Below are positions 1,620 to 16,230 of a stretch of 25,445 nucleotides of DNA, in pieces. This DNA is from a virus: positions 1 through 25,445 of the IMG/VR virus record IMGVR_UViG_3300033997_000507; one strand, 5' to 3'. A program made the position numbers and the translations under genes. Position 1 is the stretch's first letter. Each line of letters starts with the position of its first letter. The notes below the pieces were generated by a model. The model worked only from the letters and a program-made list of their open reading frames with translations. It had not been told where the DNA came from and ran no database searches.

Positions 1620-2298
1620 GAACGGGCTCCATGGGATACGCTCCCCGCACGAACGGGGAGGAACGATCACCAATGTAGCCGGCCGCACCGGGTGCAGAGA
1701 GGTGCGGCGGCCATGTCCCTAATGGACAGGAGAATTCAGCCCAACCCTCAACACTCAAGGTCAAAATTCTTGCGCGTTGCGCTGTGATTGTTTTTTTTTG
1801 CGCCTCAGCATTTGCCTTAAATGACCCAGGCGGTAAGTACCGAAGCGAGCCGTTATTGTGGTAGAAATGCGGATACTGCATCACGATCTCAACAGTGGGG
1901 CGCTCCCATATCCATTGGGTGGCGGGCACGGAAAAACCTCCCTCAAGTGCCGCCTTCACCTGGTACGAAGTCGGGGGACCATACTTAAGGGTCACGGCTT
2001 CCCTGGCGAGCTCGAAATTCTCATTACGAAAATCTGCATCGATATCCTGAATTTTCCCGTTCTCAAAATTATAACTAACTGAATATGCTAATATATTTCC
2101 AATCCTTGGGAATCTCTCCATGCAATGATCTGAATAATCAGGCTTTGGGCACTCCACTTTAAGAACTTTCTTCAGTTCAGCCTTTGTCATGCCGAATTTG
2201 GCACCTCGAAAACTGAACTCCTCTTCGGCTGCATAAGCCTGGCCGGCAACCCCGAAAACGCACAGGCCGATCACGGCAAGGCTGCATCGCTTGAACAT
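1507..2298 (-). CDS. Secreted/periplasmic protein of unknown function (moron)
   Basis: The start ATG at 2298 follows GGGGAGAG. The first 23 residues form a signal peptide: Lys/Arg, a hydrophobic core (LAVIGLCVFGVAG), then AYA before AEEEF. The mature part (FRGAKFGMTKAELKKVL, two Cys at about residues 50-60, several aromatics) looks like a small periplasmic or outer-membrane-associated domain; I do not recognise a named family. The gene is clearly more AT-rich than its neighbours and sits between tail tube and tail chaperone, so it is probably horizontally acquired cargo acting on the lysogen. After a run of nine A (1791-1799) the frame continues to 1507, overlapping the chaperone by 113 nt, but that last part reads like non-coding sequence. 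A one-base change in the run would stop it at about 1761 or 1748. Confidence 0.65.
   Translation of the reverse strand: MFKRCSLAVIGLCVFGVAGQAYAAEEEFSFRGAKFGMTKAELKKVLKVECPKPDYSDHCMERFPRIGNILAYSVSYNFENGKIQDIDADFRNENFELAREAVTLKYGPPTSYQVKAALEGGFSVPATQWIWERPTVEIVMQYPHFYHNNGSLRYLPPGSFKANAEAQKKTITAQRARILTLSVEGWAEFSCPLGTWPPHLSAPGAAGYIGDRSSPFVRGAYPMEPVHVFVHQYWLRYLLYLADRGKNPRSGPPRSLPTPPVPG
1641..1708 (-). other. Two hairpins and a late-promoter-like dyad upstream of the tail chaperone gene
   Basis: Positions 1641-1660 form CTCCCCG-6-CGGGGAG. Positions 1682-1708 form GCCGCACC-11-GGTGCGGC. Within the second, 1683-1697 reads CCGCAC-CGG-GTGCAG, one mismatch from the dyad found near the lysis genes. A weak -10-like TACATT lies at 1677-1672 on the minus strand. 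No U-run follows either hairpin, so a simple intrinsic terminator is unlikely. Confidence 0.5.
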
Positions 2299-2337
2299 AA
2301 TCTCTCCCCATGGCTCTCTAACCGGGGGAGAGATTAT
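2297..2337 (-). promoter_or_regulatory. Perfect 13-bp hairpin covering the moron start region
   Basis: On the minus strand ATAATCTCTCCCC (2337-2325) pairs with GGGGAGAGATTAT (2309-2297) across a 15-nt loop. The 3' arm holds the Shine-Dalgarno GGGGAGAG and the first two bases of the start codon. In transcripts reading through from the tail tube gene the site should be masked. A transcript starting inside the 5' arm or loop would escape; a TAATCT that could serve as a -10 lies in the 5' arm, but no good -35 is visible. Confidence 0.75.
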
Positions 2338-2364
2338 CAATCTTAATACGAGAAGAACAGGCTG

Positions 2365-3300
2365 CTATTTTACCGTCAACGTCACCGGCCCGGCGGTATC
2401 AGCGGTGTAACGCGTTGCCATGGTGAGGTGCCGATAACCATCAACATCGGCATAGTTCACCTTCGGCCCCAATTGTACCTTGGCGCCGGTCAGATCAACG
2501 ATGTTGCCGGCCACCGTCCCATGGGTCAGCGTCACCGCCACCAGGGTAGGGGGTTTGGACATGGCCAGCGCAAAGAAATCCTTCACCGCCACGCCGGGGT
2601 CTTCGAAATTCAGATTACCCACGGGCACCGGGTCCCGGCTTTGGATGCTTTCCTCGCCAACCAGGAAGCGCCCCACCACTTCGTTGCCGGAATCGAAGGT
2701 CAGTTCCTGCAACTTGCCAACAAAGCCATCGACACTGAAATCGCTGTTGGCATCATTGACCAGCAATTCATTGGCCGCCGCATAGGTTGCAGCCGGCAGG
2801 GTGGCGGCGGCCGTGGTCACCGGCACAAACAGGCCCTTGCCGTCGAAACTGGCCAGCAGCCACTTCCCGGCACTGGCATTCAGCGTGATTTTGCCACGCA
2901 CGCCCACCAGCTTGTGCAGCGCCCCCTTCATCTGGAAATACAGGGTGGCCGATCCGTGCAGTGAATTGATCGGCTTGTATTTCACATCTGTGCTGGCCGT
3001 GACCGTCTGCGACCAGCCCGAACACAGCATCACCGCCCCCCAACTGGGGGCAGTACCCGCCGTGCCGCTGCCGCACAGGGCAAAATCGAATTTCACGCTG
3101 ACATGGGTGCCAGACAATTGCTGCACCGGGGCGCCCAGCGTGGGATTATCCACATCCAGGGTTTCTTCGTTCCCTTCGACCGGCGTGATGGACCCGTTCA
3201 GGGTCTTGATGGCATTGGCGGTACCGCTTGGCGCTGCATCGGTGCCATAGGTGGTTTCCGCCTTCAACAAGATCAGTTTTTCTTTCCAGGTGAAAGCCAT
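2365..3300 (-). CDS. Major tail tube protein
   Basis: The protein has 311 residues, starting MAFTWKEKLILLKAETTYGT, with GGAGGGG just upstream and the preceding stop abutting the start (TAAATG). The opening (lysine/leucine-rich strand, then ETTYGT and a Ser/Thr/Gly-rich beta pattern) and the C-terminal Ig-like TVAGNIVDLTGAKVQLG strand pattern are typical of siphovirus tail tube proteins, which polymerise into the hexameric tube around the tape measure. Genes for tail completion precede it and the chaperone frames follow, interrupted only by the moron. A contractile-tail sheath gene is not seen in the window. Confidence 0.8.
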   Translation of the reverse strand: MAFTWKEKLILLKAETTYGTDAAPSGTANAIKTLNGSITPVEGNEETLDVDNPTLGAPVQQLSGTHVSVKFDFALCGSGTAGTAPSWGAVMLCSGWSQTVTASTDVKYKPINSLHGSATLYFQMKGALHKLVGVRGKITLNASAGKWLLASFDGKGLFVPVTTAAATLPAATYAAANELLVNDANSDFSVDGFVGKLQELTFDSGNEVVGRFLVGEESIQSRDPVPVGNLNFEDPGVAVKDFFALAMSKPPTLVAVTLTHGTVAGNIVDLTGAKVQLGPKVNYADVDGYRHLTMATRYTADTAGPVTLTVK

Positions 3301-3531
3301 TTACCCCTCCTTGCCGGCATCGGCCGGCTGCACATTGCCGCCCGCACGGGCGCGCCGCTGATCCTTGGGCCGATCTTCAACCGGATTGGCCGGTTCAACC
3401 GCGCCGGCCTCATCCAGCCGGTTCAGCCGCGCGCCATCCGCATCCCGCGCCCGATTGCCCAGCGGGTGATCGTCGGTCCCTTCGACGCGCCGCAGCATAC
3501 CGCCTTCGTTGATATATGTGCCGCCTTGCAT
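3301..3531 (-). CDS. Small hypothetical protein of the tail module
   Basis: The protein has 76 residues from the ATG at 3531 (MQGGTYINEGGMLRRVEG). GGGAG, overlapping the previous gene's TAG stop, makes this start better than the upstream ATG at 3585, which would overlap the previous gene by 52 nt. It is rich in Arg, Asp and Ala with no membrane segment or cysteine, and the C-terminal half looks disordered. No family is recognised. Its place directly before the tail tube gene suggests a small virion or assembly factor. Confidence 0.6.
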   Translation of the reverse strand: MQGGTYINEGGMLRRVEGTDDHPLGNRARDADGARLNRLDEAGAVEPANPVEDRPKDQRRARAGGNVQPADAGKEG

Positions 3532-3533
3532 GG

Positions 3534-4010
3534 CTACTCCCGATGCCGTGTGTAGAAAGACAGGCTGGCCGAATGGCACAGCCATTGATTGGCCAGCATC
3601 GCCGGCCCCGTTTCATCCAGGTTGACACCGCCGCTGAAATCGCCGGCGCCAAGCGCGGGGATGAACCCATCGACCAGCCCGCCCAGGCTGGTATCCGCCT
3701 CCAGGGCCAGACGTACCGCCTCGCACAGGCTGTCCATGACCAGTTCGGACGCCGTGGTATCCTGGATGCCCAGCAAGCCCCGGATGGTCCATTTCGTATC
3801 CACGATGCGGCGGGCCAGCGCACTGGATATGGACCGCCACTGCGCGCGCCTCACAAACCACCCGCGTATCTCAGCACCCCCCGGCCCGGTCCACAGGTAT
3901 AATTCGCGCATGGGGTTCTGCTGTGCCGCGTAGCGTTCCCGATCATGCACCCGGCCGATCTCCGGCACGGCCGTGATGGCCGTGATAATGGCGGCACGGA
4001 TTGCAATCAT
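3534..4010 (-). CDS. Tail terminator / tail completion-like protein
   Basis: The protein has 158 residues from the ATG at 4010, which overlaps the upstream stop by 4 nt (ATGA). It begins MIAIRAAIITAITAVPEIG, an amphipathic helix typical of minor tail protein U-like terminators, followed by an alpha/beta domain with LVMDSLCEAVRLALEAD. Tail terminators cap the tube at the head-proximal end and end polymerisation. Placement after a gp10-like protein and before the tube gene fits. The family call is from length, N-terminal helix and order, not from a catalytic motif. Confidence 0.55.
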   Translation of the reverse strand: MIAIRAAIITAITAVPEIGRVHDRERYAAQQNPMRELYLWTGPGGAEIRGWFVRRAQWRSISSALARRIVDTKWTIRGLLGIQDTTASELVMDSLCEAVRLALEADTSLGGLVDGFIPALGAGDFSGGVNLDETGPAMLANQWLCHSASLSFYTRHRE

Positions 4011-4492
4011 GCCGCCCCCCCGATCCCGGCCCATGTGCGCGCTGCTGCCGCCTCCACCGCCGCCACGATCTGGGACTGCACCGCAGCCTGACCGGACGCA
4101 AACATATGGGCCGCCTGTGTGCCTTCCGTTTTGATCTTCCAGGCGATAGCCCAGGCAATGGCGTTGGCCTTGTCATCCGGCATCGCCCCCAGCCGCCGCC
4201 GCACCCAATCGACCAGCGGTTCGACCGGCGGCATATGCGGCCGCGCCCCTGATTCCACGGGTGCCGCATAGGCCAATGATGTCCCCACGATGGCGGTTAC
4301 GCTGGTGGCCGTGATTTCCAGCGGCATCAGGCCGATGGAATTGCGCAGGGTACCCGCCCCGCTGGTCGGCGTTCGGTCAACGATTTCCCGCTGCGCCAGT
4401 AGCCCCCCCATCGTCAACGCCTGGGTCAGATGCCTGATCAGGTCTTCCGGCGCGCGCGCCCATGCATCCGCCAATCCTTGGGCATCAATCAT
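4007..4492 (-). CDS. HK97 gp10-like / minor tail Z-like tail completion protein
   Basis: The protein has 161 residues, starting MIDAQGLADAWARAPEDLIR. The pattern of an N-terminal helix, then REIVDRTPTSGAGTLRNSI, a strand region with TAIVGTSLAYAAPVESG and the tail-end helix is characteristic of the HK97 gp10-like group (VxxxTPxxxGxLRxSI ... YAxxxExG). These proteins act at the head-tail junction. The gene overlaps its neighbours by 4 nt on both sides, indicating a coupled operon. Confidence 0.75.
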   Translation of the reverse strand: MIDAQGLADAWARAPEDLIRHLTQALTMGGLLAQREIVDRTPTSGAGTLRNSIGLMPLEITATSVTAIVGTSLAYAAPVESGARPHMPPVEPLVDWVRRRLGAMPDDKANAIAWAIAWKIKTEGTQAAHMFASGQAAVQSQIVAAVEAAAARTWAGIGGAA

Positions 4493-5163
4493 GACCGCCC
4501 CCGCCGGAACAGCTTCGTCCCTCCCCAGGCGCCGGTTTTGCCCACCGGTACCGTGGCGCTGGCTCCGGCTAGGCGCTTCGGATCAATGCCCAGCAGGTTG
4601 TAATACTGCCCGCGCAGGTCCCGTGCGCGCTTGGCATAGGCATCTGATTTGCCGGCATGGTTGACTGCATCGACCTGGATCGTGCTGTCGCTGTCCCCGG
4701 CCGTGGCACCGGCCCGGCCGATCAGGATCAGATGCGCAGCATATGATGCGATAGCTTCCCGGTCTTCCGGCGGCACGGTGTCGGTGTCCGCATCCACCTC
4801 ATGCGCGGCCGGATAGGTCAGGCGCAGCTTGTGGCCGGCGGGGATGCCGCCATAGACCATGATCCAGATGCCCGCCGGCGCATAATAGACGCGCCAGACG
4901 CTGGACGGCAGCAGGGCCGGCGGGTCCTGGTCCAGCGGATATTCGATGGTAAGGCCCGGTACCCCCGGCAGCCAGTCCGCCGGGGGCGACACCTTTGTTG
5001 TCCCGTCCCCGGTGACATCGGCCACAACCAGGCGCGGCCGGTCCCGGCCATATTGGCGCAGGGCCGCCTGGATGGCCACGTCGCGCGCGGCGGCGCCGGC
5101 GGCTGTCACAGCCTCCGAACCCGCCAGCGTCACTACCAGTGCCACCAGATCAGCCAGCGCCAT
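4489..5163 (-). CDS. Head-tail connector/adaptor-like protein
   Basis: The protein has 224 residues, starting MALADLVALVVTLAG. The middle carries YGRDRPRLVVADVTGDG, then LPGVPGLTIEYPLDQDPPALL, and a C-terminal domain with PPEDREAIASYAAHLIL, which fits phage head-tail adaptor proteins found just after the capsid gene. The SYAAHLIL helix and the following region resemble gp6-like connectors. It would bind under the portal after packaging. The C-terminus is Gly/Arg-rich. The call comes from pattern and position; no enzymatic function is indicated. Confidence 0.55.
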   Translation of the reverse strand: MALADLVALVVTLAGSEAVTAAGAAARDVAIQAALRQYGRDRPRLVVADVTGDGTTKVSPPADWLPGVPGLTIEYPLDQDPPALLPSSVWRVYYAPAGIWIMVYGGIPAGHKLRLTYPAAHEVDADTDTVPPEDREAIASYAAHLILIGRAGATAGDSDSTIQVDAVNHAGKSDAYAKRARDLRGQYYNLLGIDPKRLAGASATVPVGKTGAWGGTKLFRRGRS

Positions 5164-5167
5164 GATG

Positions 5168-5539
5168 TCAGACCCGAACCAGCGTGATCAGGATGTCGAT
5201 ATCGGTGAAGGTCGGGCTGCTCGTACCGCCGATATCCAGGTCTATGGTCAGTTCAGCCTCATCCGCCAGCTTGGCGGTGGCAATCGCCGCCTCGGTGAAA
5301 CTGTCCGCCACGACGGCCACCGGGGCCGACAGCACCGTGGTGCCCCCGACCTTCACATTGGCGGCCAGGGTGGGGGTGGTACCGGTGCTGACCCGCGCAG
5401 TGGTGCTGATCCCGGCCAGATAGGCAGGGAACGGCAGGCGGAAGGCGGCAGCGCGGGTCACATCGGCATTGCAGGACGGGATGCGCACGGGCAGCAGGAC
5501 GACGGGGGCGCCGCCAATGGACGGCAGTTTCGTGGCCAT
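5168..5539 (-). CDS. Putative capsid decoration or head fibre protein
   Basis: The protein has 123 residues (MATKLPSIGGAPVVLLPVRI...), with AAAGG upstream of the ATG. It is rich in Thr, Ala, Val and Asp with alternating hydrophobic residues, so probably all-beta. It follows directly after the capsid gene, where decoration proteins are common. There is one Cys and no signal peptide or transmembrane helix. The family is not recognised; the role is inferred from position and composition. Confidence 0.45.
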   Translation of the reverse strand: MATKLPSIGGAPVVLLPVRIPSCNADVTRAAAFRLPFPAYLAGISTTARVSTGTTPTLAANVKVGGTTVLSAPVAVVADSFTEAAIATAKLADEAELTIDLDIGGTSSPTFTDIDILITLVRV

Positions 5540-5614
5540 GGGGGAACCTTTCAGGAGAAGGGTAAAAGGAAAAGGAGGGAGCCTGCGCGGCAGCGTGGGA
5601 GGGCAGGCAGCCGA

Positions 5615-7594
5615 TTAAGGCACTACTGCCTTGTAGAAAGGCCGCCAGTCGCAGACGGCACCGCCATAGATGTGCCGCAGCTTCCAGGTCAGGGTGTCGT
5701 TGAAGAACATCGACCCGCTGTTCGGCGCGTCCTGGACGAACAGTTCCGGTTCCTCCTGACCGTCCAGGAAGCCGATCTCAATGCCGGGCACATCCAGCGG
5801 GTCGGCCACGGCCACCCAGTCGTTCTGGTCCGTCCAGTACCAGACTTCCACGACCACCGGGCGGGTCCGCTGCACGAAATCGGCGTCCAGATTGGTCGCG
5901 CGGACGAACAGGTCTTCGGCCACCCGGGTCTGATAGGGCGACACCAGCAGGAATTTCGGCCCGACACCGACCGTGTCATCCTCACCCGCCTTGGTGCGCG
6001 TGATCAGGCCGACGCGGGCCGCGTCCCAGCTATCCTTGCTGATGGCGGCGGTACCCAGATTGCCGCGACTGGCATGGAACAGCGCCGTGTTGTCGTAAAT
6101 CGTCGGATTGTCGCGGAAGAAATCGAAGACGAACTTGGCCAGGGTCCGATTGGCGGCGCGTGACAGCTTGGTGGGGATTTGCCGCACGGTACCAACATCG
6201 TCGTTGCGGATCATCTCCAGCGACACGCTTTCCAGGCCGCCGCGCTTTTCGACGACATATTCAGCGCTCTCATCGCCGGGGCTGGGCAGTTCCAGATAGG
6301 GCTGGCGCTCACCAACCTTCGGGATGGCACCATACCCACCCACGCGCACGCGCGTCTGCTTGCGGAAATCGCCCACCCGCGTGACATTCACCAGCGGTCG
6401 CCATCCCGCCAGGGCCGTCTGCTGCTTGTAATCGGCCAACATGCGGCGATTGATCGTGTCGCCCAGGGCATCCGGGAAGCTTTCGGTTCCCAGCGCCTCG
6501 CGCAGCCGCGCCTCGTCACAGTTCTTCAGGCGGCCGCTGAAGCGCCGGTCGCCGGTGATATCCAGATAGATGTCCCGGATACTGCCGGCATGGCGATGAT
6601 CCTGATGGTTCGGATCAAAGAAGGCTTCCAGCATCGTGGCGACCTTCTCCCGCCGGCTTTCGCCGCCCTCAATGCGGGCGGACGGCCCCAGGTCCAGCAC
6701 CTGGCCGCCGCCCAGCCCCAGCCCGGTCAGATAGGACTGTTCAGCCTTGATGGCCTCCTCGATCTGCGCCTCCGTAAGCGTGCCCACGTCGTCGCGCGCC
6801 AGCAGGGCGGCGGCCACCTTGGCCCGCGCCTGTGCTGGCAGCCCGCAGCGGCCCACCCGGTCACGGACGGACTGGCGGGCTTCGATCAGGGCCACCACGG
6901 CGGCGTTATCGGCAGCCGCCGGCAGGGGCGCCGCTTCCGTCAGCACTTGGTCCAGCAGCGCTTCCAACTGCGCTTCGGTCAGGGTGGCCTCATCCACACC
7001 GGCCAGCAATGCCGGTCGGTGGGCCTTGATTTTGGCGAGCAATTGGGCGCGCGTCATATCATCCTCATGTTCGGGAGCGGCGGCTTCGGCAAGGTCGAGG
7101 ACAGCGCCGCCGGCGCCGGCATCGACGATCAGATCGACCGATTTGATTTTCAGAAGCTGCTGGGCTTCCGTGATGGTGACGCCACCCACTTTCCGGCGCG
7201 CGACCTTGGCGCTGGCGTCAATGGACAGGCCGAAAAGGCCCGCCATGCCGCCAGCCACCGCTTCCCGTATCGTCACAGCGATATCAGCCGCCGGATTGAT
7301 CAGCGTCATGACGGCCTGAATTTCGCCGCTATCGGGGCCAGGGCCGGGGGCAAAGGCCGCTTCGGTCAACTGGCCGATCAGGTTGCGCACATCCTTGCCG
7401 CCCGATTTCAAATGGTCGGCATCCGATTTGGCGAACACGCGGGCGCCGTTGAACAGCGGCACCGCTTCGCGCAGCACGGCATCGGGATAGAAGTTATTGT
7501 TGAGAGACATCCCGGCGCGGATGACGCGCACCTTGTAGCGCCGTACCGGTTTATCACCATCCCCAAGCGCTTCCAGAATTACCAAGGCGCTCAT
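5615..7594 (-). CDS. Prohead protease / major capsid protein fusion
   Basis: The protein has 659 residues in three parts. Residues 1-170 are a prohead protease of the HK97/S78 type: the DADHLKSGG region carries the likely catalytic His61 and GLSIDAS carries the likely Ser124. Residues 175-310 are charged and helical, with LTEAQ repeats, like a scaffold or delta domain. Residues 310-659 are an HK97-fold Mu-like major capsid protein (WRPLVNVTRVGDFR, FHASRGNLGTAAIS, LLVSPYQTRVAEDLFV, GAVCDWRPFYKAVVP at the end). The protease should cut itself and the scaffold away during maturation. The gene overlaps the upstream gene by 4 nt. An in-frame ATG at 7057 has a good GAGGAT ribosome binding site and could give a protease-free product. 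Confidence 0.9.
   Translation of the reverse strand: MSALVILEALGDGDKPVRRYKVRVIRAGMSLNNNFYPDAVLREAVPLFNGARVFAKSDADHLKSGGKDVRNLIGQLTEAAFAPGPGPDSGEIQAVMTLINPAADIAVTIREAVAGGMAGLFGLSIDASAKVARRKVGGVTITEAQQLLKIKSVDLIVDAGAGGAVLDLAEAAAPEHEDDMTRAQLLAKIKAHRPALLAGVDEATLTEAQLEALLDQVLTEAAPLPAAADNAAVVALIEARQSVRDRVGRCGLPAQARAKVAAALLARDDVGTLTEAQIEEAIKAEQSYLTGLGLGGGQVLDLGPSARIEGGESRREKVATMLEAFFDPNHQDHRHAGSIRDIYLDITGDRRFSGRLKNCDEARLREALGTESFPDALGDTINRRMLADYKQQTALAGWRPLVNVTRVGDFRKQTRVRVGGYGAIPKVGERQPYLELPSPGDESAEYVVEKRGGLESVSLEMIRNDDVGTVRQIPTKLSRAANRTLAKFVFDFFRDNPTIYDNTALFHASRGNLGTAAISKDSWDAARVGLITRTKAGEDDTVGVGPKFLLVSPYQTRVAEDLFVRATNLDADFVQRTRPVVVEVWYWTDQNDWVAVADPLDVPGIEIGFLDGQEEPELFVQDAPNSGSMFFNDTLTWKLRHIYGGAVCDWRPFYKAVVP
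7054..7066 (-). promoter_or_regulatory. Possible internal translation start in the protease/capsid gene
   Basis: On the minus strand GAGGATGAT directly precedes an ATG at 7057 (codon 180, MTRAQLLAKIK), in frame and exactly at the protease/scaffold border. Mu makes its scaffold Z from an internal start in gene I, so an equivalent here would yield excess scaffold-capsid over protease. Confidence 0.45.
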
Positions 7595-8010
7595 GCCGGT
7601 GTCCTCAGCTTTTGGCCCGCGACGGTCACGACAGTGAAATCTTCACCATCGTCCGACACCCGCCAGGACAGGACCTCAGCCGGGGAGATGCCGACCGACC
7701 GTGCCGCCTCCCGAAGGGTCACCGTTCCGGCGCCCAAGGGTGCCTCCCGCCTGGCGCTGTTGGCGGCATTAAGCGCCGCATCCAGTTCCCGGCCCACACG
7801 CGACAGTTCAGCCTGATTGGCATCAAGGACAGCTTTGCTAACGGCTTCACGCTCTTCCGCCACCGAAAGCGCCGCTTTCGTGGCATCCAGCTCGCCCTGC
7901 ATCTGGGCAATCCGCCCCTGCTGCGCTTCAAGCGCAATCAGCGCCGCTTCCAGCGATTCCGGCTGGTGCGTGGCAGGCGGGGCATTCTCTTTCGAGGTTT
8001 TGGCGGCCAT
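7591..8010 (-). CDS. Coiled-coil hypothetical protein of the head module
   Basis: The protein has 139 residues from the ATG at 8010 (MAAKTSKENAPPATHQPESL); GGAGT lies six nt upstream. Residues 20-85 are a long coiled coil (EAALIALEAQQGRIAQMQGE onward). The C-terminal 45 residues (VTLREAARSVGISPAEVLSW) look like a small helical, HTH-like domain. The stop overlaps the protease/capsid start by 4 nt. It may help prohead assembly, but no family is recognised. It is the first gene after a 200-nt untranslated stretch and probably the first gene of a late transcript. Confidence 0.6.
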   Translation of the reverse strand: MAAKTSKENAPPATHQPESLEAALIALEAQQGRIAQMQGELDATKAALSVAEEREAVSKAVLDANQAELSRVGRELDAALNAANSARREAPLGAGTVTLREAARSVGISPAEVLSWRVSDDGEDFTVVTVAGQKLRTPA

Positions 8011-8210
8011 CGGGTTACTCCGGTGATATCTGCCACCAGAATAGGTCCGCACCCATTGCGGACTAAGGTTGCCCCGCCTCTACCCAAGCGGGGCCGCTTA
8101 CATCGTCAGTAACGCACCAGTAACGGGGGCAGGATGCGGCGGGCCGGATCGCCCCTTGCCTGACAGCGGCCAAGCCGCCCGCCGCATCCAGCGCCCGTCT
8201 TTTGGGGTAA
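8011..8210. promoter_or_regulatory. Non-coding stretch with late-promoter-like dyad and hairpins
   Basis: No credible gene is seen in these 200 nt. Positions 8047-8061 read CCGCAC-CCA-TTGCGG, one mismatch from the dyad near the lysis genes, inside a larger GTCCGCA/TGCGGAC inverted repeat. A TATTCT at 8043-8038 (minus strand) could be a -10. Positions 8072-8095 hold GCCCCGC/GCGGGGC. Positions 8133-8144 and 8177-8188 form a 12-bp perfect inverted repeat (GATGCGGCGGGC), possibly ending the upstream transcript, although no U-run follows. This is where Mu has its PI late promoter. Confidence 0.55.
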
Positions 8211-9122
8211 TCAAAAACCCCCATCCGCCGCCGGGGCCAGCAGCCGCGCCACAGGGCTGTTGCGCAGTTCTTCCTCGCTATAGGGCCGGCGGCCAGGTGT
8301 GATCATCTCCCAGCTATCCATGTAGGGTAGCTGGCTGCACCCGCAGTTGATGCGTTCGCCGATGGGAGCCTTGGGGTCGCGCGGGTGCATAAGGGTGATA
8401 CCCCGCGCCAGGATGAAGGGTTGATCCACCGGCTGGACCTGCCCATCAATCGCGTCATGGGACAGGCGCGGGTGCAGTTTACCAGATCGCCGCCATTGCT
8501 TTTTCAATCCCGGCAGCATGGGGGCGGCTTGTTCCATCCGGGCCTGTGTTGCCATTGTATAGGCCGTGCCCAGCTCCGTGCGCACGATACTGGCGGCGCG
8601 CTCACCGCTGCCGCCGATAATCGCCTCTACCTTCTGCGCCGCTTCAAACGGCGTCTGGGTACCGATGGCGGCAAAGGCGATTTCGGCATTTACCTTGTTG
8701 ATGGCCGTGGTGCTGATATCGCGGATGCGGTCGGTGGTAAAGGATCGCATCGCCATCAGTACCCCCGTATCCAGGGCCGCTAGATGGGGGACGATATCGA
8801 CGCCAGCGGCAGCCAAAGGCGCATCCAGCAGGGCTTGCCCCTCTACCCAGGACTGGTCCAGCCCGCCGGCCAGACTATCGCTCATCTGCCCCTCAATGGC
8901 GCCGATGGCCCGCCGCACTTCCGCCTGCAATTGGGGTAGACGCCATGCCTCAAAATCCGATGGCACCCCCGCCAATGTGGCCTTGATATCCAGCGCTGCC
9001 AGTTGCAGCAGCCGCAAGATTTCTTCTCGCGTGGCCACCTGAATGGCCACCCCGGCACGGATACGGCGCGCTCGCTCAGAAACAAAGCGCCTGCGGCGTT
9101 CAGCATTGTTCATGGCCGTCAT
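8211..9122 (-). CDS. Head morphogenesis protein (Mu gpF / SPP1 gp7-like)
   Basis: The protein has 303 residues, starting MTAMNNAERRRRFVSERARR, and overlaps the mom stop by 4 nt. The N-terminal two thirds are helical. The C-terminal domain has the family signature: SIVRTELGTAYTMATQARME, then HPRLSHDAIDGQVQPVD, and PIGERINCGCSQLPY. These minor head proteins bind the portal and travel with the DNA in several phages. Length is slightly below typical Mu F. Its usual direct partner, the portal gene, is separated from it here by the com/mom pair. Confidence 0.9.
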   Translation of the reverse strand: MTAMNNAERRRRFVSERARRIRAGVAIQVATREEILRLLQLAALDIKATLAGVPSDFEAWRLPQLQAEVRRAIGAIEGQMSDSLAGGLDQSWVEGQALLDAPLAAAGVDIVPHLAALDTGVLMAMRSFTTDRIRDISTTAINKVNAEIAFAAIGTQTPFEAAQKVEAIIGGSGERAASIVRTELGTAYTMATQARMEQAAPMLPGLKKQWRRSGKLHPRLSHDAIDGQVQPVDQPFILARGITLMHPRDPKAPIGERINCGCSQLPYMDSWEMITPGRRPYSEEELRNSPVARLLAPAADGGF

Positions 9123-9703
9123 GGGTGCCCCGGCTTCGGATAGGGGCAGATGGCCAGCGTCAGGTCCTTCAGCTTTCGCCGGTCGATGAAGTACAGGTAG
9201 CGGAATTGGCGGAAGCTGTGTGCTACGGCCCGGCTTACATTGGTCTGTAAGTACAGCGTCCGCCCGCCGCCGCCCGCCCGCCGGTTCAGCATCATCTCAT
9301 GGTACCATTCCCCATCCAGGTGGAAAAATCGGGTCCGATGGCAGCCGCAATAGATGAAGTTGGCGGCCTGGTACACGATGCCAGCCCCGCCACAGCGTTC
9401 GTCAGCAAACGACTGTATCCAGCCGACCATGGGGAAGGCCCGCTTGATATAACGGATGGCGTAGGACAGCGCCGTGCTTTCCCCGTTTCCGGGCACGGCG
9501 TCATCAATCCACATTCGGTTCAGTTCCAGATATTCACGGTTCTCAGTCCCTGTCACGATCCGCCGGCCGGAATTGGGGTTCATCGCATAGCCAAACTGAA
9601 GGGCACCCATCAGGCGGCCCTCCATAAACACCCCAAGGTGGATATAGCTGTTGTTGACGATCCGACCGGAATAATGGTGACGGCGGATGATATCCGCCGC
9701 CAT
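9119..9703 (-). CDS. mom: Mom-like DNA adenine modification protein
   Basis: The protein has 194 residues from the ATG at 9703. Family hallmarks are HHYSGRIVNNSYIHLGVF, LELNRMWIDDAVPGNGEST, SFADERCGGAGIVYQAANF and FHLDGEWYHEMM, all characteristic of the Mom GNAT-fold family. Mu Mom converts adenine to a methylcarbamoyl-adenine and so protects phage DNA from restriction. Conserved-looking sequence (HFHIRTIPRAMAADII) continues upstream of this ATG in an open frame to 9808, but that stretch has no ATG, GTG or TTG, so either the protein is N-terminally short or a rare start (CTG 9799, ATT 9772) is used. Com precedes it with the frames overlapping, as in Mu. Late expression and translational control by Com are expected from Mu. 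Confidence 0.85.
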   Translation of the reverse strand: MAADIIRRHHYSGRIVNNSYIHLGVFMEGRLMGALQFGYAMNPNSGRRIVTGTENREYLELNRMWIDDAVPGNGESTALSYAIRYIKRAFPMVGWIQSFADERCGGAGIVYQAANFIYCGCHRTRFFHLDGEWYHEMMLNRRAGGGGRTLYLQTNVSRAVAHSFRQFRYLYFIDRRKLKDLTLAICPYPKPGHP

Positions 9704-9776
9704 GGCGCGTGGGATGGTGCGGATATGGAAATGGTCCGTGCCATACCCAACGATCTGGCCTGCCTCAAAAATATGG

Positions 9777-9980
9777 TTACGGTGGCCGATGGTGGCCAGC
9801 CGAGTCGCCTACTGCATCTGCATCCAAAGAGTTGGACGCTCGCAGGCGCTCGGGTTCGGGGCGCGTGGCCCTCGTGCTGAAGTGGGACAAGGTGCCGCAG
9901 CGGGGGCATTTGATGGCAAGCGTTTCCACGTTTCCCCGCGCCAGCAGTTTGCGGCAGATGCCGCAACGGTATTCCTCCAA
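9777..9980 (-). CDS. com: Com-like zinc finger translational regulator
   Basis: A 67-residue protein results if the TTG at 9980 is used: MEEYRCGICRKLL, then LAIKCPRCGTLSHF and PEPERLRAS. Four cysteines (6, 9, 25, 28) form a C4 zinc finger with the spacing of Mu Com, which binds the mom leader RNA and opens its start site. The alternative ATG at 10055 adds 25 residues that look non-coding. Only a weak GAG lies upstream of the TTG; a strong GGAGGA lies just after it, out of frame for a good start. The stop at 9777 lies inside the open mom frame, matching the Mu com-mom overlap. Confidence 0.75.
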   Translation of the reverse strand: MEEYRCGICRKLLARGNVETLAIKCPRCGTLSHFSTRATRPEPERLRASNSLDADAVGDSAGHHRPP

Positions 9981-10139
9981 AGTTGAACTCGCTAAGCATA
10001 ACCCCGCCCGGTGCACGGGTGACGGGATGGCCGAGGGTCGGCCGACTAAAGCCATGTGGGATCGTTCCCCACGGTTCGGGGCGTTGGCGCGCCCCGGCCC
10101 CCGTCGGCCCCTTGGCCGGGGGGAATATCGCGGCCCTGT
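9981..10139. promoter_or_regulatory. Leader region between portal and com
   Basis: These 159 nt hold no supported gene. An inverted repeat CCCCGGCC/GGCCGGGG lies around 10093-10122, next to the portal stop, and GTGGG/CCCAC with a GATC in its loop lies around 10056-10073. In Mu the mom promoter has its own control region with Dam sites; only one GATC is seen here and no late-type dyad within one mismatch. A com/mom promoter here is possible but not shown. Confidence 0.35.
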
Positions 10140-11645
10140 TCATTCCGGCTCGCCCCGTTGGGGGGCATCAGGGGCATCGGCAGGCGGCAGGTCCTGGTCA
10201 ATATCCGGCGGCAGGGTGAAGCCGTCGCGGCTCTGCTGTTTGGCCTCGCGTTCCCCGGCCTGTTTCTTGGCCTTTTCCAGCTCGGCCGGCGGATCAATCT
10301 TGGCGCCCAGCATACCGGCGATCAGGGCGATGATCCCCAGGGCCGTTTCTTCGGTCAGAAGGCCCTGCTGGATCAGGCTGATGCAGGATGCAGAGACGGC
10401 CGACAGGGCAGCCGCCACCCGCGACGCGTCCTTGGTGCTCAATTCCGGCATCACCGCCCGCACCTGGAAGGCCGGCTCCCGCATTCGTTGGGCGATGTCG
10501 GCGCGGCCCAGTTGCGCCATGCGGCGTCGGATAACAAGCGTGCCCACGGCAACCAGCATGGCCTTGATGATGTTCTGCCGCATGGTCAGGACGGTCAGGG
10601 TGGGGTCTGCCATTTCGGCAGCCGACGCCCGGTTGACATCCGATCCGTCGCCATACCAATGGCCGGGGATGGTGGCACCGCCCAGGATGTTGGTCAGAAC
10701 AGTACGGGTCAGATTGGTGACGTCATGGCTGTTCAGCGCCGGGGCCTGCGCCTTCCATATCTCGGACTCATTATGCACGCGGGTGGTGGGGCCGCGCGGC
10801 CCCTGGATTTCGCGGGCCTTGGCGTCCAGTTGCTCTTGTGTCGCACCCTTGATCTCCACGTCCCACAGCACCGCGCGCATCAGTTCGGCGCGCTCCAGCT
10901 CCCCATACAGCAGCTCCTCATAGGCGTCGCACCAGTCGATGGCAGACAGCAGGTCCGACCGGCCGCGCGCGCCGCCCGTCAGGGCATTGATGCGCCAGAA
11001 GAAGCACTCGCCATCCTGGAAGCCTTCACGCAGCTTCTGCGCGCCCTCACCGAATATGGTCTCCGGCCCGTTGACGATGACACGCAGCAGCCGGCGCCGG
11101 CCGCCCGGCCGCCGGATGACAACACCGACGGGCTGGCGCTTATTGTCCGGGTCCATGATGACGCGGTCGATATCGGCAGGGTCTTCAAAGCCCAGTCGCA
11201 CGGCGCCATCGATCTCGTTTTCATGCACCACCCAGACCTGTTCGCCGAACAGGGATAGTTCCCGCACCAGATCAGGCAGGTTCTCATCCATGCGGTTGAT
11301 GGGGTCTGTCCAAAACTCCGAAAGCCAGGCCGCCGCCTCTTCATCGTCGCATTCCAGGCGCACCCCACCGGCCATCAGATAGGCCACCGGCAGTTCAACC
11401 AGGCGATTGGCCAGACGCAGGCGCTCCCAGCCATAGACGGCCAGTTCCTGCATTCGTGCTTGCGTGACAGGGGCCAGATCGCGGCGGCCATCGGTGCTAA
11501 GGGGCCGCCAGCCCGCTTCATCCCCGTCAATGGTGACACCCGAGGCTTCAACCAGATTGCCCATGGTCGCGGCAACCGCTGCCACCGGAGGCAAGGCAGG
11601 GGCGGGTGCGGCGGCATTCAACAGGCGGGATAGCCAGGACATCAA
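10140..11645 (-). CDS. Portal protein
   Basis: The protein has 501 residues, starting MMSWLSRLLNAAAP, and overlaps the terminase stop by 4 nt. Portal features include WERLRLANRLVELPVAYLM near the N-terminus (clip/wing start), DPADIDRVIMDPDNKRQPVGV, a crown region with NILGGATIPGHWYGDGSDVN and a helical C-terminal barrel (MRQNIIKAMLVAVGTLVIRR). The end is Pro/Asp-rich (PPDIDQDLPPADAPDAPQ). It would form the dodecameric channel at one capsid vertex through which terminase packs DNA. It does not look like the Mu DUF935 portal; it is closer to general siphophage portals. Confidence 0.85.
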   Translation of the reverse strand: MMSWLSRLLNAAAPAPALPPVAAVAATMGNLVEASGVTIDGDEAGWRPLSTDGRRDLAPVTQARMQELAVYGWERLRLANRLVELPVAYLMAGGVRLECDDEEAAAWLSEFWTDPINRMDENLPDLVRELSLFGEQVWVVHENEIDGAVRLGFEDPADIDRVIMDPDNKRQPVGVVIRRPGGRRRLLRVIVNGPETIFGEGAQKLREGFQDGECFFWRINALTGGARGRSDLLSAIDWCDAYEELLYGELERAELMRAVLWDVEIKGATQEQLDAKAREIQGPRGPTTRVHNESEIWKAQAPALNSHDVTNLTRTVLTNILGGATIPGHWYGDGSDVNRASAAEMADPTLTVLTMRQNIIKAMLVAVGTLVIRRRMAQLGRADIAQRMREPAFQVRAVMPELSTKDASRVAAALSAVSASCISLIQQGLLTEETALGIIALIAGMLGAKIDPPAELEKAKKQAGEREAKQQSRDGFTLPPDIDQDLPPADAPDAPQRGEPE

Positions 11646-13033
11646 CGCGACCTCTTGGTGGCGAAAAGCGACTTCAGCGCAGTTCGGGAGAACATGCGGG
11701 GGTGAATTTGGCCGTGGCGTTCCATGCCGGCCGGCGCGGGCGGGGGCGGCACGGTGACGCCTGCCGCCGGGGTTACGGCCATGTCTGCCCCGCCCAGCGC
11801 CAGGGCCAGCGCCCAGAACCGGTCGGCATGGTCCTTTTCATCTTCCGGGGTGACCATGCGCGGGGCGCCGGTGGCCCCGGTGATTTTCTTGATCTTGTGC
11901 AGGTCCGCCCGCAGCACTTGGTTGCCCATGGGGATACGAACGGTGCGGTCTTCGAACTTGTCCTTGACGATGGTAGCCAGATTAAAGGGCCGGGCACCGT
12001 TCAACAGCACCCCCTCAACCCGCAAGTCGCCATAGCGGGTCTTGGCGTCTTCCACAGGCTTCTCACCCATGCCGGTCTGATCCATGGCGATCCGGCCGAT
12101 ATTGGCCAGGCCATAGCGCGCGACGATCTCATCCAGCGTATCGTCCTGCTCCCGGAAAGTGATGTTCCGCCGTTCCACGATCTCGCGTGTCACAAACACA
12201 TCCCCCACCAGTTCCAGCACCCACACCACCCACAGATGCCGGCGCCGGGCGATATCGTTGCCAATGAAGATGGTCCCGCCGCCATAGGCTTCGGGGAAGC
12301 CGGCCGTCTCATCCTCGCAGGTGGAAATCAGCTCGTAGGGCAGCCAGGCGCTGGCATCATCCAGCCAATCCAGCTCGTATTCCTGGCTCCACAGATCCTC
12401 GTCATTCAGACCCGCCTTCAACTCCTCGATGTCGCGGGGCAGCCCATCCGCCACGGCCCGGTAAATGTCCACATGGTGGCGCGACCAGGTGCTGTCCTTG
12501 GCCGTCATCAGCTCATAGAACTTGTTATTCTTGCCGTTGGGGGTGGATGTAACGCGCAGCTTGTGCCCGGCCGAAATCACCGGGAAAAGCGCCCCCCATA
12601 TAGCCTTGCTGTTGGCATGGAAGGCGAATTCGTCCAGGAACACATTGGCACTGAAACCGCGCGCGGTGTCGGGATTCGCCGGCAGCGCCGTTATCCGGCT
12701 GCCGCCCGGTAACGTCACCTCCAGCGCCTTGTAGCTGGCCCCGCTGCCGCCCTTCCATTCCACTTCCTGTTCATCAACGCCGATTTCGTAGGCCTTGGCG
12801 TGGCGCTTGACACCTTCATCCATGGCTTCTTTTGCTTGGCGTTCACCGCGCGACAGGATGACCCAACGCGCCCGCCGGCCTTCCGCGATGGCCGCAAAGC
12901 AATCGTCCACCACTTCCAGGGCCGTGGTGAAGGTCTTGCCCGTCTGCCGGGCGAACATGCCGATCTTGAACCGGCTTTCATCCAGCATCCATTGCCGCTG
13001 GTAGCGGTGCAGGGGGACGGCAGCGCTGCTCAT
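11642..13033 (-). CDS. Terminase large subunit
   Basis: The protein has 463 residues. The ATPase domain carries a Walker A variant FARQTGKT (27-34), Walker B VFLDEFAF (131-138) with Glu135, and the coupling motif VTSTPNGKNNKFYE (about 160-173). The nuclease half begins near TIFIGNDIARRRHLWVVW with the first acidic metal ligand, and has RIAMDQTGMGEKPVED. The protein translocates DNA into the prohead and cuts it. In Mu-like phages headful packaging starts near the phage left end and includes flanking host DNA. The 4-nt overlaps with the small subunit and portal genes indicate one operon. Confidence 0.93.
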   Translation of the reverse strand: MSSAAVPLHRYQRQWMLDESRFKIGMFARQTGKTFTTALEVVDDCFAAIAEGRRARWVILSRGERQAKEAMDEGVKRHAKAYEIGVDEQEVEWKGGSGASYKALEVTLPGGSRITALPANPDTARGFSANVFLDEFAFHANSKAIWGALFPVISAGHKLRVTSTPNGKNNKFYELMTAKDSTWSRHHVDIYRAVADGLPRDIEELKAGLNDEDLWSQEYELDWLDDASAWLPYELISTCEDETAGFPEAYGGGTIFIGNDIARRRHLWVVWVLELVGDVFVTREIVERRNITFREQDDTLDEIVARYGLANIGRIAMDQTGMGEKPVEDAKTRYGDLRVEGVLLNGARPFNLATIVKDKFEDRTVRIPMGNQVLRADLHKIKKITGATGAPRMVTPEDEKDHADRFWALALALGGADMAVTPAAGVTVPPPPAPAGMERHGQIHPRMFSRTALKSLFATKRSR

Positions 13034-13851
13034 TCAAACAGCCCATAGACATCCTGGCGGATGCGGCGCAGCGCCTCGGCCATAGACGGCGCAGCGGCAC
13101 TGGTGCCACCGGCGGCTTCCGCCTCGGCTTTCTTCAAGGCGGCATCCACCTTGACCTGCAGTTCCTTCCGGACACGCAGTTCCAGTTCCGCCGACATCTT
13201 TTCGGCACTGGCCACGTCCTTGATGGTGCGGGACAGCAAGGCTAGGTCTTTCGGGTCCAACCCCGCAACAGCCCCTTCCTCACCCTCTTCGTCGGGCATC
13301 ATGCTGTCCAGGGTCTGGAATGCGGCGGTCTTCAGCATTTCCTGCACCAGGCGGCCGACATCACCCTTGGGGTTCTCGCCCAGCTTGGCCACCCAAACGC
13401 CGGCGACTTCCTGCGCCTCCCGGTAACGCTTAAGCTGCCTTTCGGCCTTCTGTTTGTAACGGCCCACGGCGCTGCGGGACACAGGCGCCCCCATGGCGCG
13501 CAGATGCGCCACGATGCTGTCGATGGTGGCCCCATCACGCACCAGGCGGTCCATTTCCTCCCGGATGGCGGCGGGCAGTTCAGCCAGGCGCTTGGGATCG
13601 CCGCTGGCCCCCAGGGCGCGCAGATGCGACAGGATCGCCGATGCCGTGTGCCGGCCGCTGGACAGCAGCCGCACCACCTCCGGCCAGATCAACCGCCCAT
13701 CCGGGTCTGTCGGCGCGGGCTTGGACGATGCCAGCCCTTCCAGCATCCGGGCAACGCCATCAATGCCAAAACCGGCGCGCAGCAACCCATTGGCCGCCCC
13801 CCAGATGCGTTCCTTCAGATCATTCAGGCCGCTGACCGCATCCGTCATCAT
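13030..13851 (-). CDS. DUF3486-type terminase small subunit
   Basis: The protein has 273 residues from the ATG at 13851, which overlaps the preceding stop by one base (TGATG); an upstream start at 13941 would invade that gene. The DUF3486 core is visible: LAELPAAIREEMDRLVRDGATIDSI, SRSAVGRYKQKAER, and a long acidic/coiled C-terminal region. The N-terminal HTH region would bind the packaging site. About 90 extra N-terminal residues include RLLSSGRHTASAILSHLRALGA, which looks like a diverged copy of the RLVRDGATIDSIVAHLRAMGA segment. It pairs with the large terminase that follows. Confidence 0.85.
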   Translation of the reverse strand: MMTDAVSGLNDLKERIWGAANGLLRAGFGIDGVARMLEGLASSKPAPTDPDGRLIWPEVVRLLSSGRHTASAILSHLRALGASGDPKRLAELPAAIREEMDRLVRDGATIDSIVAHLRAMGAPVSRSAVGRYKQKAERQLKRYREAQEVAGVWVAKLGENPKGDVGRLVQEMLKTAAFQTLDSMMPDEEGEEGAVAGLDPKDLALLSRTIKDVASAEKMSAELELRVRKELQVKVDAALKKAEAEAAGGTSAAAPSMAEALRRIRQDVYGLFE

Positions 13852-14156
13852 CAGCTCGTGCGGCTGGGGCGGGCAATGCCGGGGACCGTGATACGACCGC
13901 GCGCCACGTCCTCCGCATGGGGTTCCAGATAGGCCATGCACAATTCCGGTGACGGCTGTTCAAGCCGCAGATATCCCTGGCGTTCCAGCCAATCCAACTG
14001 CGTGCGGATCATGTCGCGGGAGCACGATGGCACGAACTGCGGCACGATGCGGTACAGCAGGGCATCGGAACATTGATGCCCTTCATCTTCGATCAGCACG
14101 CGCAGGATCGACAGACGCGTGTTCTCAATTTTGTGTTCAGCGTAGCTCTTGGTCAT
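13851..14156 (-). CDS. Winged-helix phage protein (VpaChn25_0724-like)
   Basis: The protein has 101 residues (MTKSYAEHKIENTRLSILRV...). A winged-helix layout is clear: RLSILRVLIEDEGHQCSDALL, then SRDMIRTQLDWLERQGYLRL, and the family's closing ARGRITVPGIARPS motif. Small proteins of this kind stand between DUF2730 and DUF3486 in many Mu-like phages. The function is unknown, possibly DNA binding during packaging or late regulation. The stop/start overlap is 4 nt with the upstream gene and 1 nt with the downstream gene. Confidence 0.8.
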   Translation of the reverse strand: MTKSYAEHKIENTRLSILRVLIEDEGHQCSDALLYRIVPQFVPSCSRDMIRTQLDWLERQGYLRLEQPSPELCMAYLEPHAEDVARGRITVPGIARPSRTS

Positions 14157-14584
14157 GCTGTCTTCACCCGTCGCAGAAAATCGTCCATCACCGTGACCTG
14201 CTGTTGCAGCCGGTCAACCAGCTTGTCGGCACCCTCCAGCTTGGCACCGAATACCTTCATTTCGGCGCGCAGCTCGCGCATCCCCGCGACCGTTTCGATC
14301 CATTGTTCCTGGTCCGGCAGGTGCTCTATGGCCGCCTCAATGCGGGTTTGCCGTTGTTCCAGGCCGCTGATGGACGTGATGGCCGGCTGCATCGCCTTGA
14401 CGGCCGCTTCGATACCGGTCAACCGGTGATCAACGGCCTCAATGGCCGCCGACACGGGGGCAACCGTTTCCTCGGCCTTGTCTTTGGCAATCTTCTTGAT
14501 CGACCAGACAACCCAGGCAACGAAGATCGTATTCACGGCGCTGACGGCGGCCAGAATGGCGATGATCCAGCTCGGAATATTCAT
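14153..14584 (-). CDS. DUF2730-family membrane-anchored coiled-coil protein
   Basis: The protein has 143 residues, starting MNIPSWIIAILAAVSAVN. One N-terminal transmembrane helix (about 5-28) is followed by KKIAKDKAEETVAP and a long coiled coil (about 35-140). The layout matches the DUF2730 family found at this place in Mu-like phages, which some authors suspect to be an inner-membrane spanin or lysis accessory. That role is not shown here. It overlaps its neighbours by 4 nt. Confidence 0.75.
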   Translation of the reverse strand: MNIPSWIIAILAAVSAVNTIFVAWVVWSIKKIAKDKAEETVAPVSAAIEAVDHRLTGIEAAVKAMQPAITSISGLEQRQTRIEAAIEHLPDQEQWIETVAGMRELRAEMKVFGAKLEGADKLVDRLQQQVTVMDDFLRRVKTA

Positions 14585-14793
14585 CGACGCAAGCGCTCCT
14601 CAATCTGGCCCTGGCAGTAAAGGCATCGTTGCGCGTGCGGCTGCACCACCAGCCGGGCCGGCTCAATGGGCTCGCCGCAATCCTGGCAATCTGTACGGCA
14701 GGGCAACGCGCTGCCCTGCCGTGCGCGCACCAACAGGGAATCCTGTTCTGCCAGTTGGGCCGCCTGCGCCGTATCAACGATATCAGCCGGCAT
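14581..14793 (-). CDS. DksA/TraR-family C4 zinc finger protein
   Basis: The protein has 70 residues. The C-terminal half has CQDCGEPIEPARL and QRCLYCQGQIEERLRR, with Cys36, 39, 57 and 60 as the zinc site. TraR-type short DksA proteins act in the secondary channel of RNA polymerase without ppGpp and are common in Mu-like late or lysis operons. The N-terminal helix (AQAAQLAEQDSLLVRAR) fits the short TraR coil. It overlaps the holin-like gene by 11 nt. Confidence 0.85.
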   Translation of the reverse strand: MPADIVDTAQAAQLAEQDSLLVRARQGSALPCRTDCQDCGEPIEPARLVVQPHAQRCLYCQGQIEERLRR

Positions 14794-15355
14794 CGCTCAC
14801 CCGGCCAAACACAGCGGGTTGATCCGGGTGCGGTGCCCATTCGCCCAGCCTTGCTTCCAGCCGCTGGCGCAGGCCATTTTCACTGACGCCAAACCGCTTC
14901 AAGGCGTCCGGCACCGCCTCTGCCGCATAACCTGCGGCTTCGGCCACCAACCGGGACCGGACTTCCACCCGTGCCAGATCGTCACCCTTGCGCACGGCAC
15001 TTTCCACCGCCCATGCCAGGGCACGGTGCAAAGCATCGTCCAGATAGCTCCGGATCAGGCCATCCTCTTTCAAGCGCAGAAAGCGTGTCAGGCTGCGGAC
15101 ACCGAAACCGCCCAGGGCAGTCAACGCCCCGCCGATGATTTCCACGCCATAACCCCAGATCGGGCGCAAATCAGCGGTCACCGTCTCGGCTGCCACGGCC
15201 TGCCCGGTGAACAGCAGGAAGGCACCACAGAACAGGCCAAGGGCGGCGATACCCGCCCCGGCCAGCCGCACCCCGGCATGTTCGGCGAAGCCGGGGGTGA
15301 TGGAATGGACGATGGCGCGGATGGCCAGCGCCAGCAAAATGATGGCGGTGAACAT
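14783..15355 (-). CDS. Holin-like membrane protein
   Basis: The protein has 190 residues. The start follows the previous stop directly (TAAATG). Three hydrophobic segments (about 2-20, 29-55 and 66-87) precede a soluble half with RSLTRFLRLKEDGLIRSYLD and VPDALKRFGVSENGLRQRLE. The C-terminal region resembles soluble tails of phage holins of the LL-H type. It would form the inner-membrane pore that releases the muralytic enzyme encoded directly upstream. The call is from topology and position. Confidence 0.6.
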   Translation of the reverse strand: MFTAIILLALAIRAIVHSITPGFAEHAGVRLAGAGIAALGLFCGAFLLFTGQAVAAETVTADLRPIWGYGVEIIGGALTALGGFGVRSLTRFLRLKEDGLIRSYLDDALHRALAWAVESAVRKGDDLARVEVRSRLVAEAAGYAAEAVPDALKRFGVSENGLRQRLEARLGEWAPHPDQPAVFGRVSDAG

Positions 15356-15862
15356 TTACAGATTTTCCTTGATGCTGGGGGCGATCAGGCCAGACCAAGC
15401 GGCCATGAACTTGGCCGGGCTGCCTTTACCGCGCGCGGTGTTGTAGTGATCTTTCCAGTAATCTGCATAACCGGCCACATCGCCCTGTCGGGGCAGCGGT
15501 TTCGGCGCGCGCAGATAGATCAGCCGGCACATGATGGCGGCATAGGCCAGATTGCTGGCCAACTGCCGATCAGGCGATCCGATATGCAGGAAGCGGGTGA
15601 CCGCATCATCCAGGCCGCCCCGGAAGCGCAGGTAATTGTCCCGCACATCCCCCGCCGTGGCGGGTTCAATCTGCCAATATCCCAGCGCTGGCCCGCCCCC
15701 GATCTGGTGAATAGCGGAAAATCCGCTTTCAACGGCGGCGGTCCCCATCACCAGATCAATAGCAGCAGGCGCAGCGAACTGTGGCAGCCGGGCGGCATCG
15801 GCAATCTCGGCCAATGTCGGTTCGACAATGGCGCGGCGCAGATAGGCAATGGAGCGGATCAT
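15356..15862 (-). CDS. Lysozyme/transglycosylase-like endolysin
   Basis: The protein has 168 residues from the ATG at 15862. GTAAVESGFSAIHQIGGGPALGYWQIEP carries the likely catalytic Glu45 and the GGGPALG(Y)WQ(I)EP signature of phage lysozyme-like proteins. No signal peptide or SAR helix is evident, so release through the downstream holin-like protein is expected. The ribosome binding site is weak. It is the first gene of the late leftward operon, about 100-150 nt downstream of two dyads that may be activator sites. Confidence 0.7.
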   Translation of the reverse strand: MIRSIAYLRRAIVEPTLAEIADAARLPQFAAPAAIDLVMGTAAVESGFSAIHQIGGGPALGYWQIEPATAGDVRDNYLRFRGGLDDAVTRFLHIGSPDRQLASNLAYAAIMCRLIYLRAPKPLPRQGDVAGYADYWKDHYNTARGKGSPAKFMAAWSGLIAPSIKENL

Positions 15863-15962
15863 GGGACCACACAGGCAGGAAAGGTGATCCCCAACCCTAT
15901 CCTGATCGATACGCCGATATGAGGTGGCCCGGCCGCACCCCCTTCCCATGGAAAAGGGGGAA

Positions 15963-16015
15963 GAAATCCGCACATTGTGCGAATTTAGGTCTTGCGAAAT
16001 CCGCACGACGTGCGG
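15963..16015. promoter_or_regulatory. Paired dyad operators, 33 bp apart
   Basis: Copy one is CCGCAC-ATT-GTGCGA (15968-15982). Copy two is CCGCAC-GAC-GTGCGG (16001-16015), a perfect dyad. Both are preceded by GAAAT, so GAAATCCGCAC is an 11-bp direct repeat (15963-15973 and 15996-16006) on about three helical turns. Copy two fills the spacer of the plus-strand promoter. Candidate ligands are the Mor/C protein (16452-17000) or the XRE protein (16250-16462). Confidence 0.75.
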
Positions 16016-16021
16016 TATAAA
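15992..16021 (+). promoter_or_regulatory. Sigma-70-like promoter for the plus-strand island
   Basis: TTGCGA (15992-15997), an 18-bp spacer and TATAAA (16016-16021) point rightward. The spacer contains the perfect dyad, so a bound regulator should block or reshape initiation. The predicted start near 16028 gives a leader of about 47 nt before the TTG at 16075. Confidence 0.65.
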
Positions 16022-16074
16022 ATAGGTGTGAACGGCGCTGGTGCCGGGCACAAACCAGAAAGGAGGTGACGTAA

Positions 16075-16167: not shown

Positions 16168-16177
16168 GTAAGGCCAC

Positions 16178-16203: not shown

Positions 16204-16230
16204 ACCCCGGAAACGACTGTTACGTCACCT

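Follow-up and report, generated by a model that had tools for sequence, protein, structure and literature searches.

The stretch of DNA analyzed here (hereafter the window) is a virus record of 25.4 kb (25,445 nucleotides) from a Mu-like transposable phage in which nearly all genes run leftward. Transposase and B-like ATPase genes lie at its right end, and further genes encode a terminase, a portal, a Mom-like protein, a protease-capsid fusion and tail proteins; intergenic DNA makes up 5.5% of the window. The late genes that bear on this analysis, and the gene of their predicted activator, are the following:

1230–1619, minus strand: tail assembly chaperone gene (TAC_4), the first gene beyond the tail site
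5615–7594, minus strand: protease-capsid fusion
7591–8010, minus strand: coiled-coil gene, gene 1 of the head operon
15356–15862, minus strand: first late gene after the Mor/C gene, occupying the place of the relatives' endolysin gene (phrog_3108)
16452–17000, minus strand: Mor/C-family late activator (phrog_836) of 182 amino acids, assigned by sequence relation

Elsewhere in the window, an open frame after the tail-tube gene (1734–2299) resembles a secreted-protein insert and was missed by a composition-based gene caller, and an early-region protein (18836–19438) has a weak match, above the Pfam cutoff, to a Rieske [2Fe-2S] domain.

The 16452–17000 protein matched phrog_836 (E = 6.9e-13) and was aligned with 15 relatives; a profile that includes it finds Mu Mor (1rr7) at 4.4e-5. 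The Pfam family PF08765 is matched by 13 of the 16 members of this alignment, the window protein not among them. Its predicted structure had a pLDDT of 85.5, and a Foldseek search with this model gave no match at E <= 0.001, Mor 1RR7 being absent among the 50 matches listed.

The first-pass annotation had drawn attention to an inverted repeat, CCGCAC-N3-GTGCGG, at four positions of the window. Our scan confirmed all of them, one exact and three with a single mismatch each:

1683–1697, no strand assigned: dyad CCGCACCGGGTGCAG, one mismatch, between the predicted activator box and the -10 of the tail promoter
8047–8061, no strand assigned: dyad CCGCACCCATTGCGG, one mismatch, between the predicted activator box and the -10 of the head promoter
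15968–15982, no strand assigned: dyad CCGCACATTGTGCGA (extended, AAATnCGCACnnnGTGCGnATTT), one mismatch, just upstream of the -35 of a rightward xre promoter
16001–16015, no strand assigned: exact dyad CCGCACGACGTGCGG, inside the rightward xre promoter, where it occupies the spacer and abuts the -10

All four dyads are intergenic and fall in three separate blocks; coding sequence has no copy even when one mismatch is allowed. The window contains 29 CCGCAC words in all; the next-best dyads need two mismatches, and all five of them lie within genes. The half-site GTGCGG, which faces the late direction, is perfect in all four copies. The two dyads near lysis form a 19-nt direct repeat (GAAATCCGCACnnnGTGCG, 33 bp apart), and the dyad at 8047–8061 extends to a 7-bp stem, GTCCGCA-N5-TGCGGAC. 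There is no site in the early region as far as it is present in the window and, in agreement with the first-pass annotation, none before the mom/com region. When all 6-nt dyad words with gaps of 0–10 were compared, CCGCAC was the best in the window and no other word reached three blocks. The raw count was rejected as evidence, four copies being within chance (other dyad words reach three to six in simulated windows); three intergenic blocks sharing one dyad word were obtained in 0 of 200 simulations. It is the placement, and not the count, that is exceptional, and the dyad observation stands.

Searches with the MorC, TerL, MCP and XRE proteins, with the nucleotide sequence and by genome sampling found no close relative of the window phage, so we compared about 80 relatives found through the terminase, together with loci found through the capsid protein. 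The CCGCAC word was not conserved among them (nine scattered hits in 1.18 Mb), and a search of viral contigs for paired CGCAC-N3-GTGCG dyads returned 35 loci, none matching the window's phage proteins. An unbiased search for dyads in their intergenic DNA showed that many relatives carry a dyad of their own, quite different in sequence, at two places: immediately behind the Mor gene, ahead of lysis, and again ahead of the head genes. Such a shared motif was found before the lysis and head genes in 19 of the 32 Mor-bearing relatives whose loci were long enough to test. In L035, L052 and L069, whose records were searched whole, there was also a third copy; it precedes the tail sheath operon in the first two, and in L069 it lies in a downstream region whose promoter layout is the same. 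This pattern bears out, for this phage group, the notion of a single motif at the lysis, head and tail promoters. In 40 of the relatives' 44 sites the dyad centre is followed by a -10 hexamer, nAnnnT, that starts 31–34 nt downstream, most often at 33, as against about 2.7 of 44 at other offsets. This places the activator box at about -44, in agreement with Mor at Mu Pm (centred at -43.5; PMC4390567) and with the Mu C sites, which lie upstream of -35 (PMC4461284). Across diverse Mu-like phages, Mor/C late promoters thus described have a phage-specific box, a frequent TTA at +10 to +12 and a -10 at about +33; our literature search found no paper describing them in these terms across the group.

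Several further observations were made in the relatives. A late-promoter motif of its own is repeated in each of the Mor-bearing L005, L008, L009, L013, L015, L019, L021, L035, L036, L043, L052, L058, L065, L066, L069, L081, L082 and L151. A third TGACA dyad in L021 was discarded, as it lies at a gene edge without a -10. The third (tail) site of some relatives also follows an insert at the position equivalent to window 1734–2299. The Mor gene of an Azospirillum plasmid prophage (L151, 23978–24418) appears frameshifted within the recognition helix. In eight Mu-like relatives (L037, L039, L041, L046, L051, L056, L072 and L080) a Mor/C gene was not detected; these phages carry TTAAAC-N2-GATTAA at their lysis and head promoters and, except for L056 (two copies found), at the tail promoter as well, with the -10 two bases closer (+31). 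Their late genes may be driven by a different activator, perhaps an XRE or CII-like protein.

When the -10 spacing was required, one motif was common to the three late blocks of the window, with centres at 15931, 8075 and 1709:

15920–15941, minus strand: predicted Mor/C box of the lysis promoter, GGGGTGCGGCCGGGCCACCTCA, rank 1 with the relatives' matrix on the leftward strand
15894–15899, minus strand: -10 of the lysis promoter, TAGGGT
8064–8085, minus strand: predicted Mor/C box of the head promoter, GGGTAGAGGCGGGGCAACCTTA, rank 2 with the relatives' matrix
8038–8043, minus strand: -10 of the head promoter, TATTCT
1698–1719, minus strand: predicted Mor/C box of the tail promoter, GGGACATGGCCGCCGCACCTCT, the weakest of the three, rank 71 overall and best of its block
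1672–1677, minus strand: -10 of the tail promoter, TACATT

The layouts are GGGGTGCGGCCGGGCCACCTCA-N20-TAGGGT (lysis), GGGTAGAGGCGGGGCAACCTTA-N20-TATTCT (head) and GGGACATGGCCGCCGCACCTCT-N20-TACATT (tail); the last two hexamers had already been picked out as -10-like and are indeed present. The box pattern occurs three times in the window, always leftward, with nothing else within two mismatches; as the pattern was derived from these three sites, the meaningful point is this gap to the remaining sequence. The three-block statistic for the boxes was 14, compared with a maximum of 13 in 2000 simulations (p<1/2000). With a matrix made from the relatives only, the boxes ranked 1, 2 and 71 on the late (leftward) strand and the dyads 118, 809, 829 and 1616. 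Neither the lysis box nor the head box has an extreme score, given the length of the sequence; what is unlikely is that the two top hits fall in the two expected blocks. The distance from box centre to first gene (about 66–91 nt) matches that of the relatives. Conserved -10 spacing, presence at three late operons and gene distance are common to all three boxes, of which the tail box is the weakest. Taken together, these comparisons make it very likely that a Mor/C late regulon is present in this phage, at boxes other than the dyads.

The dyads share with the boxes their location upstream of the lysis, head and tail operons. A late-direction -10 at 31–34 nt was found for the dyad centred at 16008 only (offset 31, leftward); those centred at 15975, 8054 and 1690 are without it, giving one of four dyads compared with the 40 of 44 sites in the relatives. 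At the head promoter, the dyad at 8047–8061 lies between the box (8064–8085) and the -10 (8038–8043), and at the tail promoter the dyad at 1683–1697 lies between the box (1698–1719) and the -10 (1672–1677); both fit the gap of roughly 20 nt without overlap. A large imperfect inverted repeat (8123–8198, 34-nt arms, 79%) was also observed upstream of the head promoter. The spacer of the lysis promoter is without a dyad: the two dyads of this region lie upstream of the lysis box, with centres about 44 and 77 bp from the box centre, on a rightward promoter that leads into a small xre gene. As our automatic promoter scan requires T as the sixth -10 base, this promoter was not listed by it. The features of this rightward unit are:

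15992–16021, plus strand: candidate xre promoter TTGCGA-18-TATAAA, recognized by sequence, leading into 16250–16462
16055–16240, plus strand: strongly structured xre leader, with a basal stem (AGGAGGTGACGTAA/TTACGTCACCTCCT) hiding the ribosome site, a three-way junction and a GAAA-capped hairpin
16075–16167, plus strand: tiny putative open frame inside the leader, 30 amino acids, TTG start
16250–16462, plus strand: small XRE/HTH_3 protein of 70 amino acids, the favoured candidate for the dyad binder

The XRE protein reaches the gathering score of HTH_3 (PF01381; 25.8 bits, cutoff 23). Its leader folds far better than expected by chance (z -7.9; -7.2 for the reverse strand). Homologous XRE genes (46–57% identity) were found in phage ctOK67, which by annotation is integrase-type and not Mu-like, and in two viral contigs; their leaders, with z values of -7.7, -6.5 and -8.4, share the layout of the window leader. 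In this layout the ribosome site is hidden by a long basal stem, one arm contains a tiny TTG or GTG frame, and there is a second capped hairpin. These three leaders lie at L135 19805–19966, L157 3814–3978 and L159 3811–3983, which makes four phages with this topology before a homologous small XRE gene. No comparable leader was present in most bacterial XRE homologues, and Rfam returned nothing above the gathering score for the window leader, which is possibly an undescribed RNA element. With a covariance model built on the L157 and L159 leaders, L135 gave a weak match (E 0.05) and the window leader gave none, so the RNA homology of the window leader is one of topology and position only. The ctOK67 xre gene has a dyad of a different word, CATACTGAGTATG, abutting a TA-rich -10-like stretch; it is unique in the 40 kb searched, and no wider regulon was seen there. 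In L157 and L159 no dyad was seen in the xre promoter spacer. Among the Mu-like relatives the xre gene was not found, and neither was the dyad family, scattered single hits aside; their joint absence fits a common arrival of the two. This comparison supports a transferable XRE-leader unit and weakly favours XRE as the protein that would bind the dyads.

Repressor operators are usually located in the spacer beside the -10. The position of the dyads there, and beside xre, suggests that they are operators and that a second regulator exists, for which the neighbouring XRE is the simplest candidate. On these grounds the dyads are probably a second operator layer and not the late activator's own sites, with XRE the most likely binding protein. 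The reading that we favour, at about an even chance of being right, is that this second regulator, most likely XRE 16250–16462, would brake the head and tail operons and not lysis. From the boxes with centres at 15931 (lysis), 8075 (head) and 1709 (tail), the Mor/C protein would switch on the three late operons, and an XRE dimer on a dyad would block RNA polymerase. XRE would thereby repress its own promoter through the dyad in the rightward spacer and hold back the Mor/C-driven head and tail operons; the lysis promoter, having no spacer dyad, would stay under Mor/C alone.

The first-pass annotation had instead read the dyads as marking the late regulon of the single Mor/C-like protein. This interpretation was partly supported: the phage is Mu-like and has one such protein (phrog_836), and the relatives' lysis, head and tail promoters share a motif in the same control regions as the dyads. 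The part that did not hold up is the assignment of the dyads as Mor/C sites. It may be that the geometry used by Mor/C differs in this phage and that the dyads are its sites at an unusual spacing; we regard this as rather unlikely. The dyads do occupy the same three control regions as the relatives' Mor-type motifs, with the late-facing half-site perfect throughout, and their 5-bp inverted repeat with a 5-bp gap resembles the Mor site at Mu Pm as published, in which 5-bp inverted repeats with a 6-bp spacer are centred at -43.5 (PMC4390567). However, the relatives' -10 spacing is seen in a single dyad, the boxes at 15931, 8075 and 1709 fit far better, and at the head the start codon would lie roughly where transcription begins. 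In three cases a Mor protein that has V-Q in its recognition helix is paired with CGCA half-sites; we dropped this correlation as support for a Mor/C-dyad link because the dyads failed the -10 test.

It is also conceivable, and in our view improbable, that the dyads serve as an additional lock on the late promoters through a different repressor, of the phage or of the host, such as a presumed lysogeny repressor encoded past the window's right end or the HTH protein 20251–20703. The latter is an HTH_3 protein, the spacer position would suit any repressor, and the window stops short of the place expected for the repressor gene of a Mu-like phage; against this, two of the four dyads lie at the xre promoter, and the early region present in the window is without a site. 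That the dyads are chance palindromes, or stem-loops formed in leader RNA, as the 7-bp stem at 8047–8061 and the unremarkable raw count might suggest, is very unlikely, given that none of the 200 simulations shared a word among three blocks and that in the predicted promoters the dyads lie upstream of the start point, and would thus not be transcribed from them.

An extension of the favoured reading, in which XRE brakes the head and tail promoters, is that a transferable XRE-plus-structured-RNA unit inserted between mor and lysis and brought operators of its own into the head and tail promoters, a brake sparing lysis, and that the same protein may also bind the leader RNA. We consider this doubtful. 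Aca2, an Aca-type HTH regulator of anti-CRISPR operons, is reported to bind both DNA and RNA. The window system resembles Aca-type regulators in general features, namely its small HTH protein, inverted repeats in promoters and structured leader RNA; unlike theirs, its targets would be late operons. It likewise resembles XRE/Cro-type autorepressors in having an HTH_3 protein and a double dyad, one copy of which lies in the gene's own promoter spacer, features known here from sequence, but differs from them in that the same dyad also lies inside two late structural promoters several kb away.

As in the Mu Mor/C promoters (Pm; Plys, PI, PP and Pmom), a single Mor/C-family activator is encoded, here just before lysis. 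At the lysis, head and tail promoters there is a shared predicted activator box whose centre lies about 33 nt from a weak -10, a geometry near the -43.5 published for Mor (PMC4390567) and in keeping with C sites described as lying upstream of -35 (PMC4461284). Unlike Mu as described in these two papers, the window has a second dyad family, placed at head and tail in the gap that separates activator box and -10. If the favoured reading is true, a Mu-like phage would have given its structural late promoters a second DNA-binding control, precisely in the interval from activator box to -10, and the timing of head and tail would be separated from that of lysis. The comparison of relatives provides a working description of the Mor/C late promoter across a diverse set of Mu-like phages, with which the divergence of Mor/C specificity becomes testable by sequence; a code for this specificity could be derived by pairing the late-promoter motif of each Mor-bearing phage with the recognition helix of its Mor protein.
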